Positions 30,280 through 40,935 of a DNA stretch of 50,672 nucleotides are shown in pieces (position 1 is the first letter of the stretch; every line of letters starts with the position of its first letter). The position numbers and the translations under genes were made by a program. This stretch comes from Lachnospiraceae bacterium (GTDB taxonomy: Bacteria > Bacillota > Clostridia > Lachnospirales > Lachnospiraceae), in the NCBI GenBank assembly GCA_017548765.1, contig JAFYZH010000057.1, forward strand, positions 1 through 50,672, read 5' to 3'. The notes beneath the pieces were generated by a model. It was given only the letters and a program-made list of their open reading frames with translations. It was not told where the DNA came from and did no database searches.

Positions 30280-31545
30280 ATGATGATCATTTGCCCGGTG
30301 TGCGGGAAAGAGACCGAAGGCGGTTATAAGTTTTGTATGAATTGCAGAAGCGAGATCGGCGCGGACAATGCTTCGCAGGCGGCGCAGGCTGCGGCTTCAC
30401 AGGCTACAGAAACCGTGCAGGCAGCGGCGGCTACGGCTGCGACGATGGCAGCACCGCAGATAATGGCGGCGCCCGGTGCACAGACGGGAGCGGTTCCCGG
30501 CGCATCGAAGGCGACACCTCCACAGAACTACGAGACTTATGAGCCCTACATTAAGCAGGGAACGATCCCGGATTATTCAAACTATCCGAACATGTATTCC
30601 GCTCCTGACCCGAACGTGGTGAGGGTGAAGCAGAAGAAGGGCCCCGGCGGCGGACGGAAGTTTTTTGCATTTTTCGTGTGTTTCTTTCTGTTCCTTTCGG
30701 GGCTGGCTTCGCTGGCTCTGTATTGTGTCGGAAAGACATTGTCCGCGGAGAATATAGTGAATGTAGTGGTGGACTCTACCGAGCTCACGACCATCGACGT
30801 TGGAAAACTGACCGGCAACAGTGGGGATGAAGGAAAGACGATCTCCGAGTTTATCATGGAGCAGATCCCCGAGGACCAGAAGGAAAGATTTCCCGGATTG
30901 ACGGAGGACAGTATCAATGAGATCCTGACCGACGAGGACACGAAGGTTCTGGCGTCCGAAGTTCTCGGCGACCTCACGGGCTATTTGACCGGTGAGAAAG
31001 AGGAGTTTGCCATCGATCCGGAGAAGACCGTCGAACTGCTGAAGGAGCACTCCGATAAGATCGAAACCATGATCGGACAGAAACTGAATGCGGAGGATTA
31101 CGCTTCCATCAAAGAAGAGATCGGAAAATTCAATACCGAAGAAATGGCGAAACTGACCGGCGGAGAACAAAAAGGAGTTGCGGAAGCGATGAAGGCTGTG
31201 CGCTGGGGGCTGTCGGGAGTCCTGCTGAAGGCACTGATCGGAGTGTCGATCTTCTTTATTTTGCTGGTATTCCTGATTTTCGGTCGGTATGTGGACAGCG
31301 CGCTGATCCGGCTCGGCCTGACGGCTGTATTTGTAGGCGGCGCTGCTTGTGGAGGCGTGAAGATCGGCGAGCTGGCTATCGAAAAATCGTTAGTCTCCCG
31401 GATCGGTGTAGGCCTGACCGAACTGCTGGATAAAGCTGTTTTTACACATTTTGAGAAGACCGGAATGATGGTGATTTTCGTTGGTGTCGGAGCCATGGCG
31501 GTCGGTATCTTATGGAAAATCATACTTCCAAAGAAGAACGCATGA
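30280..31545 (+). CDS. Zinc-ribbon membrane protein with Ala-rich linker
   Basis: The 421-residue protein has an N-terminal zinc ribbon (Cys5, Cys8, Cys19, Cys22; CPVCG and CMNC), an Ala/Gln/Thr-rich flexible stretch (about 28-75), and a basic segment just before a first membrane helix (about 127-149). An external region of about 165 residues rich in Asp, Glu and Lys follows, then three more membrane helices (about 316-336, 344-362 and 396-415). The external part contains EEIGKFNTEEMAKLTGGEQ and is helical, with no motif I recognise. GGGAGG lies upstream of two adjacent ATG codons. The gene appears to be cotranscribed with the Nudix gene. Function unknown. Confidence 0.8.
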   Translation: MMIICPVCGKETEGGYKFCMNCRSEIGADNASQAAQAAASQATETVQAAAATAATMAAPQIMAAPGAQTGAVPGASKATPPQNYETYEPYIKQGTIPDYSNYPNMYSAPDPNVVRVKQKKGPGGGRKFFAFFVCFFLFLSGLASLALYCVGKTLSAENIVNVVVDSTELTTIDVGKLTGNSGDEGKTISEFIMEQIPEDQKERFPGLTEDSINEILTDEDTKVLASEVLGDLTGYLTGEKEEFAIDPEKTVELLKEHSDKIETMIGQKLNAEDYASIKEEIGKFNTEEMAKLTGGEQKGVAEAMKAVRWGLSGVLLKALIGVSIFFILLVFLIFGRYVDSALIRLGLTAVFVGGAACGGVKIGELAIEKSLVSRIGVGLTELLDKAVFTHFEKTGMMVIFVGVGAMAVGILWKIILPKKNA

Positions 31546-31569
31546 GAGAATACATGAGATAATAAAACG

Positions 31570-32133
31570 ATGAGAACGATCTACATTTATGATTATAAAA
31601 ACTACAAAGTCGGCGGGACCGTAGGAGTACGCCCTTCGGTGCGTGCCATCATCATCAAAGACGGAAAACTCGGCATGATCCACAGCCGCAGGTTTGACTA
31701 CTATACATTTGCCGGAGGAGGGATCAATCCGGGCGAAAGTCACGAGGAAGCGCTGATTCGCGAGGTTCGGGAAGAACTGGGCCTGAAGGTACTACCGGAA
31801 ACGATCCGTGAGTACGGCCTGCTCATCCGGAAGGAGAAGGGGAGGATCGACGACCTCTTTATCCAGGAGAATTACTACTATCTGTGCGAAGTTTCCGATC
31901 AGCAGATGGAGCAGGAACTGGAAGGATATGAGATCATAGAGGATTACGAAGTATGCTGGGTGACGCCGGAAATAGCAATACGGGTCAATCAGGACCACGA
32001 TCATGGGGAGATGGGCAGCGGGCCGACGCAGGCGGAATATATGCACCATCTGTTCCATCGGGACGAGGTACTGATGCGAAAACTGGTGGAGGAAGGACTG
32101 GTGCCCGCAGGAGAGCTGGCGGAAAATGGTTGA
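31570..32133 (+). CDS. Nudix hydrolase
   Basis: The 187-residue protein has a complete Nudix box at about 48-73: GGGINPGESHEEALIREV followed by REELGL, matching GX5EX7REUXEEXGU. This motif binds Mg and hydrolyses nucleoside diphosphates linked to another group. The N-terminal region (VRAIIIKDGKLGMIHS) is the expected first strand pair. The specific substrate cannot be told. The gene starts 24 bases after the preceding stop with only a weak ribosome site. No terminator separates it from the next gene, which has its own promoter. Confidence 0.88.
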   Translation: MRTIYIYDYKNYKVGGTVGVRPSVRAIIIKDGKLGMIHSRRFDYYTFAGGGINPGESHEEALIREVREELGLKVLPETIREYGLLIRKEKGRIDDLFIQENYYYLCEVSDQQMEQELEGYEIIEDYEVCWVTPEIAIRVNQDHDHGEMGSGPTQAEYMHHLFHRDEVLMRKLVEEGLVPAGELAENG

Positions 32134-32158
32134 AGAAACCGGAAGGGACGATAAAAAG

Positions 32159-32187
32159 TTGCATCATTTCCCGAACTGTGGTATTAT
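32159..32187 (+). promoter_or_regulatory. Promoter of the DUF4430-ECF transporter cluster
   Basis: TTGCAT (32159-32164), 17 bases, TATTAT (32182-32187). The transcript would begin almost directly with the hairpin at 32192. Confidence 0.75.
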
Positions 32188-32191
32188 ATGC

Positions 32192-32210
32192 GTTGGGGTA
32201 TAGCCCCAAC
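32192..32210 (+). promoter_or_regulatory. 5'-end mRNA hairpin
   Basis: GTTGGGG and CCCCAAC enclose TATAG at or next to the expected transcript start, followed by AGGAGG and the ATG at 32232. A stem at the 5' end typically protects mRNA from decay. The roughly 40-base leader leaves no room for a cobalamin riboswitch. Confidence 0.6.
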
Positions 32211-32231
32211 ATATGATAGGAGGTATAGATT

Positions 32232-33245
32232 ATGAATATGAAGAAGAGATTTTCCGCATTGCTGGCGGCAGGAATGCTTGTTGCAGCTCCTGTTGCGGTA
32301 TTTGCCGATGACGAACCTACGACCGCTTCTTCCGAAGTGATCACGAAGGAAGCAGAGGCTGTTGAAGCCGAGCCGGTCACCGGAGATGCAGGTCAGGCAG
32401 TTGATACCGTAGGCGCAGCAGCTCCCGTAGATGGAGATGAACCTACCGTGGCTCCCGTAGGTGGCGAGAGCGATGGCCCTACCGTAGCTCCGGCCGATGG
32501 GGACGTAAAGGCGGAAGAACTCGTTACTGCACACGTTCGTGTTGAAGGCATCGATAAGATGTTGTACAATAGCGATGTGACGGTATCGGTTAAGAGCGGC
32601 GAGAAGGCTACCGCGAAGTCGGTCCTGATGGCAGCAGACGAGCAGTCCGACGATCTTACCATCGTTGGCGCAGATGCCAACTATATCACCGAGGTCAATG
32701 GCGTGAAGGCAGCTACCTACGGCGGCTGGGACGGCTGGATGTATCAGGTAAACGGCGTTGCCGCTCCTGTGGGCATCGATGCATATGAGATCGCAGCAGG
32801 CGACAGCATCGTTCTGTACTACTCGGATGAGTATGGCATCGGTATGGATTACCCGATCATGAACGTTGATAAGATCGCAGATAAGAAGATTTCCTTCACA
32901 TCCATGAAGACGACCTATGATGCAGAAGGTAAGGCTTCTACATCCGAGGTTAAGGTTACCGATATGGACGTTACCATCGGCGGCGAGACTTTCAAGACCG
33001 ACGCGAACGGTGAGATCACTCTTTCCGACGCAGTTATGGCGAAGCTTCCCGCGGAGATCGCGATCAGCAAATATGCAGAGAACGGCTGCCCGCTCGTACT
33101 TCGTTACGCACCGGGAACCACCGTTGCCGCTCCGGCAACCGCTACACCGACCGGAGACGCTACCCCGGTAGCATGGCTGTTTGTGATCGCAGCAGGTGCT
33201 GCAACGATCGCAGTAGCAACCCGTAAGAAAGAACAGGTTAGATAA
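32232..33245 (+). CDS. Surface protein with DUF4430 (transcobalamin beta-like) domain
   Basis: The 337-residue protein has a signal peptide (about 1-25), an acidic Pro/Thr/Val-rich stalk with repeated GDEPTVAP-like units (about 26-95), and a DUF4430 domain (about 97-205). That domain shows the family hallmark GWDGWMYQVNGVAAP followed by GDSIVLYYSDEYG. A further beta-rich stretch and a C-terminal membrane helix (about 312-330) ending in RKKEQVR complete it. DUF4430 is the fold of the C-terminal beta domain of human intrinsic factor and transcobalamin, which closes over cobalamin. It probably displays a ligand-binding domain outside the cell. The next gene also has DUF4430 and leads into an ECF transporter. 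Ligand identity is inferred. Confidence 0.85.
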   Translation: MNMKKRFSALLAAGMLVAAPVAVFADDEPTTASSEVITKEAEAVEAEPVTGDAGQAVDTVGAAAPVDGDEPTVAPVGGESDGPTVAPADGDVKAEELVTAHVRVEGIDKMLYNSDVTVSVKSGEKATAKSVLMAADEQSDDLTIVGADANYITEVNGVKAATYGGWDGWMYQVNGVAAPVGIDAYEIAAGDSIVLYYSDEYGIGMDYPIMNVDKIADKKISFTSMKTTYDAEGKASTSEVKVTDMDVTIGGETFKTDANGEITLSDAVMAKLPAEIAISKYAENGCPLVLRYAPGTTVAAPATATPTGDATPVAWLFVIAAGAATIAVATRKKEQVR

Positions 33246-33294
33246 TTTACATCGCCCGCGGGAAACCGCCGGGTGAGATAGAGAAGGAGTCGGA

Positions 33295-35310
33295 ATGCAG
33301 AACAAAATGCGTAGGCGTCGACACAATCTGATTTTGTGGTCGCTGGCAGTTGTTTTGCTTCTGACTTCTTTTTTTGATGCTTTTAGCAGCGTCGGGCTGA
33401 ACCGGCGTGTGTTTGCGGACACGACGGCGGAGCAGCTGCTCACGAAGTGCCGGGAGGCGCTTTCTTGGAAAATGAAGGCCTCCGGCGTTACGACGGAGCA
33501 GGAGCTGCTGGATGCGATGGCGGCGCGTGCGGGCCGAAGCCCGGAGGACTGGTACGTCCTCGCGATGGCGAAGATGGGCCTGAAGCTTGATTACACAAAG
33601 TATGCGAACGCCCTGTTCGAGGTATGCAAAGATCCTGAACCGACGGATGTGGAGCAGTACCGGCGCTATCTGACGGCGCGCGCGATGGGCTACGACGACA
33701 TCCCGGGGACGGTCCCCGAGAAACTGAAGGATAAGGGCATCATGAGCGCGATCTACCGCGGCTATGCCGTGGCGGCCGGCCGTGCGTCGAGTTCGTTTGT
33801 CTACGGGGAGACGCAGAGTGCCCTCATCGCGCTGAAACTGGCAGACGGCGGCTACGCCCTGATGGGAGAGACTTCCGATATCGACGTGACGGCCTTCGTG
33901 CTGCAGGCGTACGGCGCCCTCCTCGGCGCGCAGGGTAAGAACGCGGCAGGCGCGGAGCTGATGGCGGCGGTCCGCGATGGTTTCGCAGTGCTCGGTAAGC
34001 GCCAGTCGGCGGACGGCGGCTATGCATCGTTCGGCACGGCAAATGCCGAGAGCGGGGCGATGGTCCTGCTGGCCCTCGCAGCATTTTCCGATAAGGATAT
34101 CGCGGCGGAAGTACGCAATTCGGTCGATGCGAGCGCCCTGATCGCGGCGACGGACCGCTTCCAGACGGCGAAAGGCGGTTTCGCGCACGCTCTGACGGAC
34201 GGAGTTGCCTCCCTGGAAAATGACTTGGCCACGGCGCAGGTGATGTGCGCATACGCGGCATATGCTTCCTACCTGAAGGGAGCGTCCGGACGTCTCTACC
34301 CGGTGAAGGCGGCGGCAGCGCCGGTGGAGCCGACGACACAAAAGCCGACGGAGAAACCGACCGAGGCATCCACGGAAGAGACGACAGCAAAGCAGACGGA
34401 AGCGTCTACAGAAGAGACGACAAAGAAGGAAACCGGGGCCTCCACACAGGAGACCACGACGAAGGGGACGGAAGTTTCTGAAGAAGAAACGACCGAAGAG
34501 ACCGCGGAGATGTCGACGGAGGAGTCGGCCGAAGGATCGACCGCGGAAACAGAAGAGGAGACACGGGAGAGTACCACGGAAGAAACAACGGTCGTTCCCG
34601 AAGAAACCACTACAAGCGTGGAATCGACGGAAATCAGTTCCGCAGAATCCACAACCGAAGCGATAACAGAAGAAAACAATCCTTCTGCACCCACAGAAGA
34701 GACAAATATAGAAGAAACGGAGGAAGCTTCCTCCACATCGACAAGTACGATACGATGGATCATGACGGCGGTCGTGGCCGGCCTGATCTTACTCGCCTTT
34801 TTGGCGAACCTTTTCTCGAGACGCAAGTCGAAGTTGAACTACATCCTGATCCTCATCTTCGGCGTAGCGGCGCTTACGTTCATCTGGCTGTCGAAGATCA
34901 CGATGCCGGAGCAGGCGACGCAGAAACAGCAGCAGTCTTATCTGGAGCGTCTGCCCGCACAGGGAGAGTTCCGCATCGAGATCAGCATTGACCAGAGGGT
35001 CGAAGGCGAGGAGATGCTGCTTACGCCGCGACTGGTGACGGTCAGCGCTGACGATACGGTCTTCGAGATCCTGGACCGTGTGACGAAGGCCTATGGCATA
35101 AGCATCGATTATACAAAGAGTATGGTCGGGACCGTGTACGTGCGCGGGATCGGCGGCCACGCGGAGTTCGATCGCGGCGCCGGCTCGGGCTGGGTCTTCC
35201 TGGTCAATGGCACGCTGGCGACGACGGACGCGGGTAGCGTGAAACTCTCGGAAGGCGACGTCCTTCGGTGGGCCTACACGCTCGACCTGGGAAAGGATGT
35301 GAGCCCATGA
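33295..35310 (+). CDS. Transcobalamin-like membrane protein: alpha-toroid plus DUF4430 domain
   Basis: The 671-residue protein has an N-terminal signal or anchor (about 10-32). A helical repeat region follows (about 45-345) with GGYALMGE, GGYASFG and GGFAHAL turns, the pattern of prenyltransferase/squalene-cyclase alpha-alpha toroids. Then come a Thr/Glu-rich stalk (about 350-480), two membrane helices (about 487-507 and 514-535), and a C-terminal DUF4430 domain (about 556-670; GAGSGWVFLVNG, then GDVLRWAYTLDLG). In animal intrinsic factor the same two folds clamp cobalamin. Both domains would sit outside, joined by a membrane hairpin. The TGA overlaps the ATG of ecfT, so synthesis is coupled to the transporter. 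Corrinoid binding is a strong inference, not proven. Confidence 0.85.
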   Translation: MQNKMRRRRHNLILWSLAVVLLLTSFFDAFSSVGLNRRVFADTTAEQLLTKCREALSWKMKASGVTTEQELLDAMAARAGRSPEDWYVLAMAKMGLKLDYTKYANALFEVCKDPEPTDVEQYRRYLTARAMGYDDIPGTVPEKLKDKGIMSAIYRGYAVAAGRASSSFVYGETQSALIALKLADGGYALMGETSDIDVTAFVLQAYGALLGAQGKNAAGAELMAAVRDGFAVLGKRQSADGGYASFGTANAESGAMVLLALAAFSDKDIAAEVRNSVDASALIAATDRFQTAKGGFAHALTDGVASLENDLATAQVMCAYAAYASYLKGASGRLYPVKAAAAPVEPTTQKPTEKPTEASTEETTAKQTEASTEETTKKETGASTQETTTKGTEVSEEETTEETAEMSTEESAEGSTAETEEETRESTTEETTVVPEETTTSVESTEISSAESTTEAITEENNPSAPTEETNIEETEEASSTSTSTIRWIMTAVVAGLILLAFLANLFSRRKSKLNYILILIFGVAALTFIWLSKITMPEQATQKQQQSYLERLPAQGEFRIEISIDQRVEGEEMLLTPRLVTVSADDTVFEILDRVTKAYGISIDYTKSMVGTVYVRGIGGHAEFDRGAGSGWVFLVNGTLATTDAGSVKLSEGDVLRWAYTLDLGKDVSP

Positions 35311-36170
35311 GAGTTTACCTTCATTCCCGAACCTGGTTTATCTATTTCATTATGGTCATTGCGATCCTGATGTCGATCCGCCATCCGGTGCTGATCCTGA
35401 TCGGCCTGGAGAGCGGTCTGATCTGGTGGAAGATCCTGGGGAGAAAACTGCGCGCAGGCCATGTATTTGCCGCGTTATTCATCCTCGGGGCGCTGGCGGT
35501 CGCGAACCCGCTCACATCCTCGAACGGCGCGACGATCCTGTTCTACCTGAACGGGCGCGCATTTACCGCGGAGGCCCTCGCTTACGGCCTTTTGTTCGGC
35601 GCGGTGCTCGTAGTCACCCTGCTATGGTGCGTGATCCTGAGCGAGCTCATGACAACGGACCGCTGGCTGAACGTCTGCGGCCGACGCTTCCGGAAGACCG
35701 GCCTCGTGCTGACCATGGTGTTCCGCTTCTTCCCGCTGTTCACGAAGCAGTGGCAACGGATCCGCGAGGGGCAGGAAGCCCTGGAGGGAGGTAGCCCCGT
35801 CGGCTGGAAAGAGACCTTTCGCATGACGAAGCGCGAGCTTCTGTGCATGCTGACCTGGTCGCTGGAACACGGTTTCGTGACGGCCGATGCGATGCTGGCG
35901 CGCGGCTACGGCGCGGCGAAACGCTCGTTTTTCAACCGCGAAAACTACCGCTCGGCGAGCGTCGGGGTAGCGATCTTGCTGCTCGCGGCATTTTCCACCG
36001 TCATCACGATCGCGGTCCGCGGAGGGATGGAAGCAGAGATCTATCCGTACGTAAAGATCCACATGGATGCAGCGATCGACATACTCGGATTTGCAGCGTT
36101 TTTTCTGCTCTGCCATATTCCGATGATCTCATATAAAGTATTACGCGAGGAAAGGAGGATGCGGTCATGA
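35307..36170 (+). CDS. ecfT: ECF transporter transmembrane subunit EcfT
   Basis: The 287-residue membrane protein starts in an ATGA overlap with the transcobalamin-like gene. It shows several hydrophobic helices and the EcfT coupling motif region LARGYGAAKR (about 196-205), where the Ala-Arg-Gly triplet contacts the ATPases. EcfT links the two ATPase domains to the substrate-binding S component in energy-coupling-factor importers of vitamins and metals. Because the gene lies in the same operon as one S component, this module may be dedicated rather than shared. An ATGA overlap also joins it to the ATPase gene that follows. Confidence 0.88.
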   Translation: MRVYLHSRTWFIYFIMVIAILMSIRHPVLILIGLESGLIWWKILGRKLRAGHVFAALFILGALAVANPLTSSNGATILFYLNGRAFTAEALAYGLLFGAVLVVTLLWCVILSELMTTDRWLNVCGRRFRKTGLVLTMVFRFFPLFTKQWQRIREGQEALEGGSPVGWKETFRMTKRELLCMLTWSLEHGFVTADAMLARGYGAAKRSFFNRENYRSASVGVAILLLAAFSTVITIAVRGGMEAEIYPYVKIHMDAAIDILGFAAFFLLCHIPMISYKVLREERRMRS

Positions 36171-37780
36171 TACAAGTCGAAAATGTAAGTTTTACATACG
36201 CCGGAGCGGCCCGTCCGAGCCTTTCCGACATCTCCCTGCACGTCGCGCCGGGGCAGTTCGTCCTGCTTTGCGGTCCGACGGGGTGCGGCAAATCGACCTT
36301 GCTTCGGATGCTGAAGCCGGAGCTTACGCCGGCCGGTGAGCGGAGCGGCCGCGTACTGTTTAACGGAAACGAGATCGGGGCCAATGACCGCCTTCCGAAG
36401 ATCGGTTTCGTCATGCAGAACCCGGAGCAACAGGTGGTCACGGACCGCGTCTGGCATGAGCTGGCGTTCGGTTTGGAGAACCTGGGAGTGCCTTCGGATG
36501 TGATCCGCCGCCGCTGTGCGGAGATCGCGGCGTACTTCGATCTGGAGAAGAGTTTCGAGAAGGACACGAACGCCCTGTCCGGAGGAGAAAAACAACAACT
36601 CGTCGTTGCCGCGACGATGATCATGGGATGCAAGGTGCTGCTTTTGGACGAACCGACGTCGCAGCTCGATCCCATCGCCGCTAACCGCTTCTTCCTGTGG
36701 CTGGAGCAGCTGCGGCGCGAGTTCGGCATCACGATCATTATGGCGGAACACCACCTCGAGGAGATCTTCGGGGAGGCGGACCGCGTGGTATATATGGAAC
36801 GCGGGCGCATCCGGGCACAGGGTACGCCGGCGCAGGTCGCCTGGGAAATGCTGACCGTGCGGGATGCATTTGCCGCGGCGCTCCCGACCGTAACGCGCCT
36901 CTTCTTCGACGCGAAGACCCGGAAAACACCGTTCGTATCGCTTCGCGAAGCAAAGGGTGCGCCCGATTATGCGCAGATGGTCGACGAAGCGAAGAAGACG
37001 CTCACATCCGCTTCGGGAAGGGATGCATTTGTGTCTCGGGAGAACGGGAAACGGGCTGAGGACCCGGCGGTCACGCTCAGCGACGTCGTATTCGCTTACG
37101 ACGACCGCTCTCCGAGCATTCTCAATAACCTGTCGTTTTCGATCCCTGCGGGCGCGTGCACCGCGATCGTCGGAGGAAACGGCAGCGGCAAGACCACGCT
37201 GCTGAAGGTGATCGCCGGACTGGCGACGCTTAAGAAGCGTGACGGTAAGGTGAAGTTTTTCGGGGAGAAGCAGGCGGACCGGCAGAGGATATCCTTCCTG
37301 ATGCAGGATGTCACGACGCTCTTTACCGAAGAGACGGTCTACGAAGAGATCGTAGCCGGCGTGAAGGAGAAGGTCGAGCAGGGCGGCGAAGGCTTCATCG
37401 AGGCGTTCCTGAAGGAGCAGGGCTTCGAAGCATTGACCGCGCATCTATCGCAGCACCCGTACGACCTGAGCGGCGGTGAACAGCAGATGCTCGGCCTTAC
37501 GAAACTGTTGCTCCGCGACCCGCAGATCCTGCTGCTCGACGAGCCGACGAAGGGCATGGACGCAGTCGCAAAAGAAAGTCTCGCAAAACTCATCACGGAG
37601 AAGACAAAAAGCGGCGTGACGGTCGTTTTAGTCACGCACGACCTGGATTTCGCGGCGCTTTGCGCCGACTACGCGGCGATGCTGTTCCGCGGCGAGATCC
37701 TGTCGATGGAGCGGGCGGACCGCTTCTTCGCGGACAATGTATTCTACACAACGCATAAGAATCGCGCGCTGAACGCATAA
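36167..37780 (+). CDS. Fused ECF transporter ATPase (EcfA-EcfA' in one chain)
   Basis: The 537-residue protein contains two complete ABC ATPase domains. The first has Walker A GPTGCGKST (36-44), signature LSGGEKQQ, Walker B LLLDEPTSQLD and the switch in MAEHH. The second has GGNGSGKTT (about 336-344), LSGGEQQMLG, LLLDEPTKGMD and VTHDLD. Most ECF systems encode the two ATPases as separate genes; here they are fused, so a 1:1 pairing is fixed. The start overlaps the ecfT stop. The product powers import by the S component encoded downstream. Confidence 0.92.
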   Translation: MIQVENVSFTYAGAARPSLSDISLHVAPGQFVLLCGPTGCGKSTLLRMLKPELTPAGERSGRVLFNGNEIGANDRLPKIGFVMQNPEQQVVTDRVWHELAFGLENLGVPSDVIRRRCAEIAAYFDLEKSFEKDTNALSGGEKQQLVVAATMIMGCKVLLLDEPTSQLDPIAANRFFLWLEQLRREFGITIIMAEHHLEEIFGEADRVVYMERGRIRAQGTPAQVAWEMLTVRDAFAAALPTVTRLFFDAKTRKTPFVSLREAKGAPDYAQMVDEAKKTLTSASGRDAFVSRENGKRAEDPAVTLSDVVFAYDDRSPSILNNLSFSIPAGACTAIVGGNGSGKTTLLKVIAGLATLKKRDGKVKFFGEKQADRQRISFLMQDVTTLFTEETVYEEIVAGVKEKVEQGGEGFIEAFLKEQGFEALTAHLSQHPYDLSGGEQQMLGLTKLLLRDPQILLLDEPTKGMDAVAKESLAKLITEKTKSGVTVVLVTHDLDFAALCADYAAMLFRGEILSMERADRFFADNVFYTTHKNRALNA

Positions 37781-37801
37781 AGCAGCGCCGGAAAGGAAAC
37801 C

Positions 37802-38407
37802 ATGGAGAACACGATGCAAAGCACGGCAGAACCGGCGAAGACCGGAGCGGGTATTTTTTCCTCCCGCGTCCAGGCCCGAAAACTCTGCATGATCGCGGTC
37901 ATGACGACACTCGCCGTCATGGGACGCGTCCTGTTTGCTGCGCTCCCGGGCTTCAAGCCCGTCGCCGCCATCGTGATCCTGACCGGCATGTATTTCGGCG
38001 CGGGCAGCGGGTTTGCGACCGGAGCCCTGGCAGCGCTGATCTCAAACATTTACTTCATGCAGGGACCGTGGACGCCCTTCCAGATGCTGGCCTGGGGCAG
38101 CATCGGCCTGATCTCGGGCATCCTGCGCCGCCCGCTTCGGCGCTTCCCCGTCCTCCTGTGCATCTGGGGCGCATTGGCCGGCGTATACTACTCTTTATTC
38201 ATGGATACGTGGATGGTCTTCTGGTACAACAGCAAGCCGACATGGCAGCTTTGGCTCGCCGCCGTATCCACCGGTGTGTTCAGCATGATCACCTATGTGA
38301 TCTCCAATGTGGTCTTCCTCGCGGCGCTTTCGCCGGCGATGGGCCGCCGACTGATGCGCATTTCCCGAAAGTGCGGAATTGTAAATGAATTGTTAACAAA
38401 CCGTTGA
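37802..38407 (+). CDS. ECF transporter S component, probably for corrinoids (CbrT-like)
   Basis: The 201-residue protein has a short cytoplasmic N-terminus and five or six membrane helices. The core reads FKPVAAIVILTGMYFGAG, then GPWTPFQMLAWGSIGLISG, a pattern I associate with the S-component group that includes CbrT. ECF-CbrT of Lactobacillus delbrueckii is known to import cobalamin and cobinamide. The S component binds the vitamin in the membrane and topples to release it inside. It starts 21 bases after the ATPase gene with AAAGGA as the ribosome site. Cobalamin as substrate is inferred from similarity and from the transcobalamin-like neighbours; another vitamin is possible. Confidence 0.8.
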   Translation: MENTMQSTAEPAKTGAGIFSSRVQARKLCMIAVMTTLAVMGRVLFAALPGFKPVAAIVILTGMYFGAGSGFATGALAALISNIYFMQGPWTPFQMLAWGSIGLISGILRRPLRRFPVLLCIWGALAGVYYSLFMDTWMVFWYNSKPTWQLWLAAVSTGVFSMITYVISNVVFLAALSPAMGRRLMRISRKCGIVNELLTNR

Positions 38408-39639: not shown

Positions 39640-40935
39640 ATGGCGGATGAGAGAGATCGCTTTTCGGATGACGAAAAAGTCATTTCGCTCGATGAAGTAC
39701 GACAGACGCGAGGAAAGCGACTGGCTACAAAAGAAGAAAACCGTAAGATGGGGCACGGCGATGAGTACCTGGACGAACGGTTGCGTGACGATATCAAGGC
39801 GCACGCATCGTTGCGGCGGACACTGGCGTTGTGCCTGGTTGCGATTCTTATCGTTGCTGTCGGTGTGTACTTCGGCATCCGCCTGACCTTGAAATATAAC
39901 GACATCGTGACGACTTGGGAGAAACCGGCGTCCGAGATGTCACTGTTTACGTCCCTGCCCTATGCGGACGGTATTTTGAAATATAACAATGACGGCATGA
40001 ACTTCTACAACGCGGATGGCGAACTGAAGTGGCCGGTGACCTACGAGATGCGTAATCCGAAGCCTTCGGTTTGCGGAGAGTACATCGTAATGGCAGACAT
40101 CGGATACAACACGCTCGTGATCTGTAACCGCGACGGCTTCCAGGGCAGCGCATACAGCACGTTGCCGATCAGTTCGGTCAGCATTTCCCGCGAAGGCCGC
40201 GTAGCGGCGGTGGTAGAGGACGACATGGCGAACCGCGTCCTGTTCTTCGATAAGACGGGAGCGCGAAACGATTCCAATTTCCAGACCCTGATGAATAAAT
40301 CCGGATATCCGATGTCGGCGGCACTTTCGCCGGATGGTAAGATGCTCATGGTATCGTACGTTTATCTGGAGCAGGGCATCATGAATAACAAGTTGACGTT
40401 CTATGATTACCACGACAGCCAGGTCGGCGCGAACCAGACCGTCGGAAGTTTCCAGAAGTACGGCGACACCCTGTTTGCGCGCGTGGTATTCCTGAGCGAT
40501 AAGCGCGCCGTGGCCTTCGGCGACGGGCGTATCGTTTTCTTCTCGTTGAAAAACCGTATGAAGCCGGAGGAGACGGCAGACGTCAAATTCTCCGATACGA
40601 TCACCCGCGTTTTCTATGACGAGGAGGGCGTTTACGTCGTGTCGGAACAGCCCGAGAACCAGTCTTGGCTCGTGACTTGCTTTGCTACCGACGGTACGAC
40701 AAAGTATGCTTACCGCTCGTCGTTCCTGCCGGACTATGTGGGCATGAAGAACGGGACTCTGTACTTCCACGACAGCAGTTCGCTCGTAGTCTACGGTAAG
40801 GTCCTGGGTAAGATGAAACTGCGTTTCCAGGGTAACTTTAAGGTGAATGTACGTACCATCGTCAACCTGGGTAAGGATAACGCGTTCATGATCTTAAGCG
40901 ACACCAAACTGATGCGCGTTAAACTGAAGAATTAA
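39640..40935 (+). CDS. DUF5711-like beta-propeller membrane protein
   Basis: The 431-residue protein has a charged cytoplasmic N-terminus of about 60 residues, one membrane helix (about 60-83), and an external domain built of repeated beta-strand units (for example YIVMADIGYNTLVICNRDG, FFDKTG, MLMVSYVYLEQG, LYFHDSS). These are characteristic of a seven- or eight-bladed propeller of the DUF5711 type. Such domains usually bind partner proteins or cell-wall components; no enzymatic residues are evident. CGGAGGAGAG precedes the ATG. The next gene, galE, starts 45 bases downstream. Confidence 0.75.
   Translation: MADERDRFSDDEKVISLDEVRQTRGKRLATKEENRKMGHGDEYLDERLRDDIKAHASLRRTLALCLVAILIVAVGVYFGIRLTLKYNDIVTTWEKPASEMSLFTSLPYADGILKYNNDGMNFYNADGELKWPVTYEMRNPKPSVCGEYIVMADIGYNTLVICNRDGFQGSAYSTLPISSVSISREGRVAAVVEDDMANRVLFFDKTGARNDSNFQTLMNKSGYPMSAALSPDGKMLMVSYVYLEQGIMNNKLTFYDYHDSQVGANQTVGSFQKYGDTLFARVVFLSDKRAVAFGDGRIVFFSLKNRMKPEETADVKFSDTITRVFYDEEGVYVVSEQPENQSWLVTCFATDGTTKYAYRSSFLPDYVGMKNGTLYFHDSSSLVVYGKVLGKMKLRFQGNFKVNVRTIVNLGKDNAFMILSDTKLMRVKLKN

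Follow-up and report, generated by a model that had tools for sequence, protein, structure and literature searches.

A probable corrinoid importer that joins transcobalamin-like surface proteins to a CbrT-like ECF transporter in Lachnospiraceae

The DNA analysed here (the window) is a stretch of 50,672 nucleotides from a Lachnospiraceae bacterium (assembly GCA_017548765.1, contig JAFYZH010000057.1), and on its forward strand, at 32232-38407, lies an operon of five genes that very probably encodes an importer of corrinoids, that is, of vitamin B12 and/or its precursors. The importer would consist of a CbrT-type energy-coupling factor (ECF) transporter together with a tethered, transcobalamin-like capture clamp of two domains. 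Both folds of the animal B12 carriers are found in one chain, a signal-like start and membrane segments are present, the substrate-specific (S) component is CbrT-like and is accompanied by an ECF module, and many homologous operons are preceded by cobalamin riboswitches. An earlier note, made from the letters of this DNA, had read the operon as a corrinoid scavenging complex, a reading that now draws support from the fold search, from the grouping of the S component with CbrT and from the riboswitches upstream of homologous operons. To our knowledge, ECF importers are taught as working without a substrate-binding protein. Operons of this type are frequent in the sampled relatives and make for a concrete, testable proposal; if the reading is true, the system would represent a bacterial counterpart of the animal B12 carriers.

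Surface proteins

As had been noticed from the sequence, two consecutive genes encode DUF4430 domains. Gene 1 (32232-33245, 337 residues) matches Pfam PF14478 at E 3.3e-15 and carries the motifs GWMYQVNG and GDSIVLYY, while gene 2 (33295-35310, 671 residues) matches at E 2.3e-15 over residues 586-662 and carries GWVFLVNG and GDVLRWAY. Based on Pfam, an AlphaFold model, Foldseek and hydropathy, the gene 2 protein runs from a toroid (about residues 45-330; core at 33496-34281) through a Thr/Glu-rich linker (343-479) and a two-helix membrane hairpin (about 480-532) to the DUF4430 domain (35032-35301). Residues 45-330 are modelled as toroid helices, mostly with high confidence; this region of the window's protein has no Pfam match of its own. 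The claim that gene 2 holds the two folds of intrinsic factor and transcobalamin was borne out by a structure search that had been set beforehand as its test. The top 15 PDB matches of the model in Foldseek are chains of intrinsic factor, transcobalamin and haptocorrin, aligned over 630-669 columns that take in both domains, and rank 16 is a transcobalamin beta domain. A toroid followed by a C-terminal DUF4430 beta-grasp domain in one chain, as in a transcobalamin-like two-domain protein, is what the gene 2 product contains. Its closest relatives, at 67-84% identity, are encoded on five contigs of metagenome-assembled genomes (four Lachnospiraceae, one Clostridiales; three from rumen).

The gene 1 protein, with termini judged by eye, has a signal peptide-like start and a hydrophobic, anchor-like C-terminal tail; its single-sequence fold was unusable (pLDDT 39.9). 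The C terminus (33100-33245) reads as TPTGD followed by the hydrophobic tail and a basic end. Among genus relatives the TPTGD motif drifts to KAGD or SPAGD, which makes a sortase signal for gene 1 doubtful.

Tethering was compared across relatives, with signals, lipoboxes and anchors assigned by eye or from simple patterns. By hydropathy, the gene 2 protein belongs to a set of 17 distinct proteins that have a toroid followed by DUF4430 and fewer than 700 residues, each of which shows exactly two segments of membrane length separating the two domains; the two such proteins above 1,700 residues (loci L063 and L083) show no such segment. Many other loci divide these domains between proteins: one carries the toroid, often with an extra DUF4430 domain in front, and a different DUF4430 protein precedes ecfT. 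The DUF4430-only proteins encoded immediately before ecfT, of which 50 were counted, begin with a lipobox-like sequence in 21 cases and have an N-terminal hydrophobic segment in 27; the other 2 show neither feature. LPxTG-like signals stand at the end of several toroid proteins, such as LPKTGD in L093. Hydropathy and the lipobox-like starts suggest that the beta domain next to ecfT is held at the membrane, with the toroid either attached by a long tether or belonging to a different surface protein.

Importer module

The three remaining genes encode an EcfT transmembrane component, two ATPase domains and an S component, and the gene order, overlaps and spacing that had been described agree with the coordinates. 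The stop codon of gene 2 overlaps the start of ecfT (35307-36170, 287 residues from this ATG) by ATGA at 35307-35310, and ecfT in turn overlaps the fused EcfA-EcfA' double ATPase (36167-37780, 537 residues) by ATGA at 36167-36170. The S component (37802-38407, 201 residues) begins after a 21-base gap. The ecfT product matches CbiQ weakly (19.6 bits, below the Pfam cut-off of 25) and its assignment draws also on its neighbourhood; an EcfT homologue adjoins the S component in 81 of 84 distinct loci. The double ATPase has two ABC domains in Pfam (ABC_tran) and reaches 299.6 bits with TIGR04520, for which the cut-off is 315.

The S component is closest to CbrT among solved S components, as had been proposed. 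With the single sequence, the only solved S component matched in the PDB is CbrT of L. delbrueckii (6fnp_A, E 9.5e-10). A profile built from 40 relatives matches CbrT at 5.5e-22 (81.8 bits), followed by RibU at 1e-4 (25.6 bits) and the S component of 4hzu at 1.9e-4. ECF-CbrT takes up cobalamin and cobinamide without competition from hemin, according to the sections of the report drawn on here (PMC5997447).

Some relatives depart from this gene plan. In 13 of 86 loci, two of them duplicates, the ATPase frame runs on into the S component as one polypeptide of 809-983 residues (L082, L086, L087, L093, L098, L100, L102, L103, L106, L107, L115, L116 and L119). The fusion in L087 is cut by the contig end, and that in L093, the only one tested against Pfam, has two ABC stretches and an S component. 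A covalently fused S component would fit poorly with models in which the S component leaves the module. Extensions of about 250-290 residues stand at the N terminus of the S components of L063 (8511-9836), L072, L077, L078 and L079; that of L063, the only one tested, has no Pfam match. L105, L109, L110 and L121 have another EcfT-like gene shortly after that of the S component. In L007 and L045, from a genus relative, the fused ATPase is split into two frames (393 and 110 residues), by a frameshift or an assembly error.

Gene neighbourhoods and distribution

The S component can be used on its own to ask what accompanies it. Of 397 genomes sampled within the family, 97 have a homologue at E up to 1e-8; the 100 places comprise the window, 80 that were fetched together with their flanks and the 19 weakest, which were left out. 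Neighbourhoods were searched with hidden Markov models seeded from the window's own proteins. On the same strand and within 9 kb of the S component, these 80 loci contain DUF4430 or the toroid in 72 cases (DUF4430 in 71, the toroid in 58), EcfT in 77 and the ATPase in 79. All parts (DUF4430, toroid, EcfT and ATPase) lie on the strand of the S component in 57 of the 80, so the pairing of DUF4430 with ecfT that the earlier note wanted profiled does recur, and because these loci were picked by the S component alone, the arrangement is not due to chance. Adding the window and L007-L011 and discarding two duplicates gives 84 distinct loci, of which 76 have DUF4430 or the toroid and 61 have all parts. 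Short contigs carry some of the eight loci with neither on the S strand, for instance L057 (3.9 kb); L113 does have a toroid gene, encoded on the other strand.

The association extends to the wider class. At E up to 1e-8 the S profile matches 150 of 391 genomes, a count in which so loose a threshold may include other S components, and the toroid profile matches 125 of 391. When weaker S matches are dropped (129 strong places, E up to 2.1e-41) and the best 150 toroid places are considered, at least 73 of the 129 have a toroid match no more than 12 kb away, in all 73 cases on the same strand. Of the 56 S places with no toroid, 27 begin within 6 kb of the first base of their contig.

Two observations further afield can be recorded here. 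Downstream of the operon, at 39640-40935 and upstream of an epimerase-type gene, the window encodes a DUF5711 protein (E 1.5e-79) of unassigned function, and one relative has two tandem Clostridiales-1 RNAs (L089, 5854-6169).

Cobalamin riboswitches

The short leader of the operon (32134-32231) had been described as free of a cobalamin riboswitch, and Rfam scans agree: none is found in the window at the gathering score, and Cobalamin is not among the matches at E up to 5 in 31400-33400. From this it had been concluded that control must differ from classic B12 loci, which holds for this genus but not generally, since 35 of 78 related genomes have a classic riboswitch upstream. The 78 genomes are those of the 80 fetched places, and the Rfam cobalamin family RF00174 occurs in 56 of them at E up to 0.001 (140 matches), in 54 of them above Rfam's cut-off. 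At 36 of 80 S sites, in those 35 genomes, a same-strand RF00174 match is found no more than 16 kb upstream, which gives 38 pairs. By comparison, there is 1 downstream pair and there are 4 opposite-strand pairs, and uniform placement would be expected to give 0.38 pairs, a figure that ignores the relatedness of the genomes. Of the 140 matches, 3 fall below Rfam's cut-off, 2 of them among the 38 pairs; above the cut-off there are 36 pairs at 34 of 80 S sites in 33 genomes. These counts may be low, as the search filters were strict and many contigs end near the operon. They supersede earlier Rfam scans of 16 relatives, which had returned two cobalamin riboswitches.

Within the fetched loci, 24 riboswitches could be placed relative to the genes. 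Seventeen are within 650 bp of a DUF4430 or toroid gene, another 6 precede such a gene by 1.6 to 3.9 kb, and the last is followed by none. Of the 6 at greater distance, four (L069, L108, L110 and L118) have one or two large proteins encoded in the interval, with matches that are Ig-like or, weakly, to fn3 or propeller domains; in the other two, L076 and L084, no open frame is listed there. Two of the 17 (L113 and L121) are on the strand opposite to the S component, where the riboswitch precedes a large toroid protein in L113 (2131-5727) and a further large DUF4430 protein in L121 (14916-18001). Riboswitches before homologous operons tie the family to corrinoids independently of the fold and of the S component.

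Proposed mechanism

The layout suggests how capture could work. In transcobalamin, cobalamin is bound first by the beta domain and the alpha domain then closes, as described in the parts of the source used here (PMC11107200), and this order would fit a membrane-held beta domain with a tethered toroid. By analogy, the DUF4430 domain held by the membrane hairpin would bind the corrinoid first, the toroid on its disordered tether of about 140 residues would close onto it, and the S component would then receive the corrinoid for import driven by ATP hydrolysis. Gene 1 is read as supplying a second DUF4430 arm at the surface. We infer that receptor and importer form a physical complex and that the binding domains are positioned over the S component. 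More broadly, we lean towards the view that many Clostridia have ECF importers served by a dedicated extracellular capture machine made of the two animal-carrier folds, in which the beta domain is membrane-tethered beside the importer, the toroid is carried on a long tether or a separate wall protein, and the corrinoid itself closes the clamp before passing to a CbrT-type S component.

Weighing the interpretation

Several results weigh against a corrinoid importer of this kind. In Foldseek the model as a whole superposes loosely on the B12 carriers (TM-score by target 0.46-0.58, root mean square deviation 8.6-16.4), and its pTM of 0.54 means that how the two domains sit relative to each other is not predicted. 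Taken by itself, the toroid is similar in VIA-align to many (alpha/alpha)6 enzymes, with sugar epimerases and terpene cyclases leading; the absence of B12 carriers from the 50 matches listed there is taken as the effect of a list filled by the toroid alone. Profiles of the toroid, of DUF4430 and of the whole gene 2 protein, run against PDB sequences at E up to 10, found no transcobalamin, so the link to the B12 carriers rests on structure. NCBIfam models match the S component weakly as a folate or riboflavin type: TIGR04518 (folate-type) matches 36 of 40 members (best 1.9e-9; the window's member 32.1 bits, cut-off 60) and NF010182 (riboflavin-type) 24 of 40 (best 9.9e-9). Both types were set aside given the profile scores of CbrT and RibU in the PDB, and no chain named as a folate transporter is among the PDB matches of the S profile. 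RF00174 was found neither in the window, nor in its whole genome, nor in two other genus members searched, and at 44 of 80 S sites the 16 kb upstream are free of it. Finally, the host genome (2.6 Mb, 106 contigs, 98.74% complete) has a strong MetE-type match (Meth_synt_2), by which B12 may be dispensable. In favour of a corrinoid importer, the genome has one strong B12-binding domain, in a protein read from its sequence as MetH, and no match to CbiC at that completeness. The host is probably able to use B12 and, judging by this one enzyme, probably lacks de novo synthesis of it; it may not strictly need the vitamin.

Other substrates would have to account for the same evidence. The S component could carry a corrin-less building block of B12, such as alpha-ribazole, in the manner of CblT, with the surface proteins binding the same compound. 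CblT S components also sit under cobalamin riboswitches, so the riboswitches of the relatives would fit this explanation as well. CbrT, however, is the only one of the solved S components that the single sequence matches in the PDB, and a two-domain clamp of the transcobalamin kind would suit a whole corrinoid better than a building block, which leaves a CblT-like role very unlikely. Import of heme or another tetrapyrrole has a precedent in LhaSTA, whose report describes heme uptake by an ECF transporter in the sections used here (PMC7299338), and yet it is hard to square with the cobalamin riboswitches upstream of relatives, with CbrT as the nearest of the solved S components in the PDB or with the lack of hemin competition for ECF-CbrT (PMC5997447, as above). 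We regard it as very improbable.

It is also conceivable that the surface proteins have nothing to do with corrinoid capture. The likeness of the toroid to terpene cyclases and sugar-active (alpha/alpha)6 enzymes could mean that it acts on a surface substrate, an explanation given very little credence here: the two-domain chain best matches B12 carriers in Foldseek, the riboswitches and the CbrT-like S component supply a different context, and the last Asp of the cyclase stretch DVDDTA is kept in 0 of 37 aligned toroids. Alternatively, the DUF4430 proteins could be general surface or adhesion proteins that merely share the importer's operon. Proteins with Big_2 or with weak fn3 or propeller matches do occur in the same operons of some relatives, and some DUF4430 domains sit in giant proteins. 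Yet DUF4430 or the toroid stands beside the S component in 72 of the 80 S-selected loci, and a crude pattern assigns a membrane segment or a lipobox-like start to 48 of the 50 DUF4430 proteins counted immediately before ecfT, which makes a merely general surface or adhesion role very unlikely. Corrinoid import by a CbrT-type transporter with a transcobalamin-like clamp remains the preferred interpretation.

Comparison with known systems

Our literature search, which excluded preprints and covered few subscription papers, found no biochemistry of a bacterial transcobalamin-like protein. The idea of coupling such proteins to an importer is not new. Burroughs, Balaji, Iyer and Aravind named the SLBB superfamily in 2007 (PMC1796856), and the sections of their paper drawn on here describe bacterial fusions of a transcobalamin-type domain with a toroid, in operons with a second paralogous surface protein and CbiO/CbiQ-like genes. 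Based on gene neighbourhoods, they proposed that such operons scavenge B12 or its precursors, and they suggested that animals acquired the gene from Gram-positive bacteria. The present operon is of the kind already proposed, sharing the secreted SLBB/DUF4430 and toroid fusion, the second SLBB protein, the CbiO-like ATPase and the CbiQ-like protein (below cut-off here). Those sections name neither an S component nor a riboswitch nor a membrane hairpin, which the present analysis adds, the riboswitch from relatives of the operon. New here are the likeness to CbrT, the riboswitches on relatives, the distribution, the tethering of the beta domain to the membrane and the match of a modelled chain over both domains.

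With ECF-CbrT of Lactobacillus delbrueckii (PDB 6fnp), as far as its report was drawn on, the operon shares a CbrT-like S component and an ECF module, and differs in its extracellular capture proteins, its fused ATPases and the EcfT and ATPase genes beside the S component. LhaSTA is likewise an ECF transporter for a large tetrapyrrole; its substrate is heme and, in the sections used, it is reported to be independent of surface receptors.

Among solved structures, domain-sized similarity is found to PDB 3u7z (Ruminococcus gnavus RUMGNA_00854; 106 columns, E 2.1e-3, Foldseek rank 36), a 97-residue chain titled as a putative metal binding protein, with no B12 role in the title, which may be a corrinoid-capture domain. 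The animal intrinsic factor, transcobalamin and haptocorrin are the best PDB fold matches and share the order of toroid and then beta-grasp domain, and DUF4430 is described as the C-terminal domain of TCN proteins in the part of the source used (PMC4350170). Compared with these carriers, the gene 2 protein has no sequence-profile match to them in the PDB, is membrane-tethered, and has a long linker and a membrane hairpin between its two domains.

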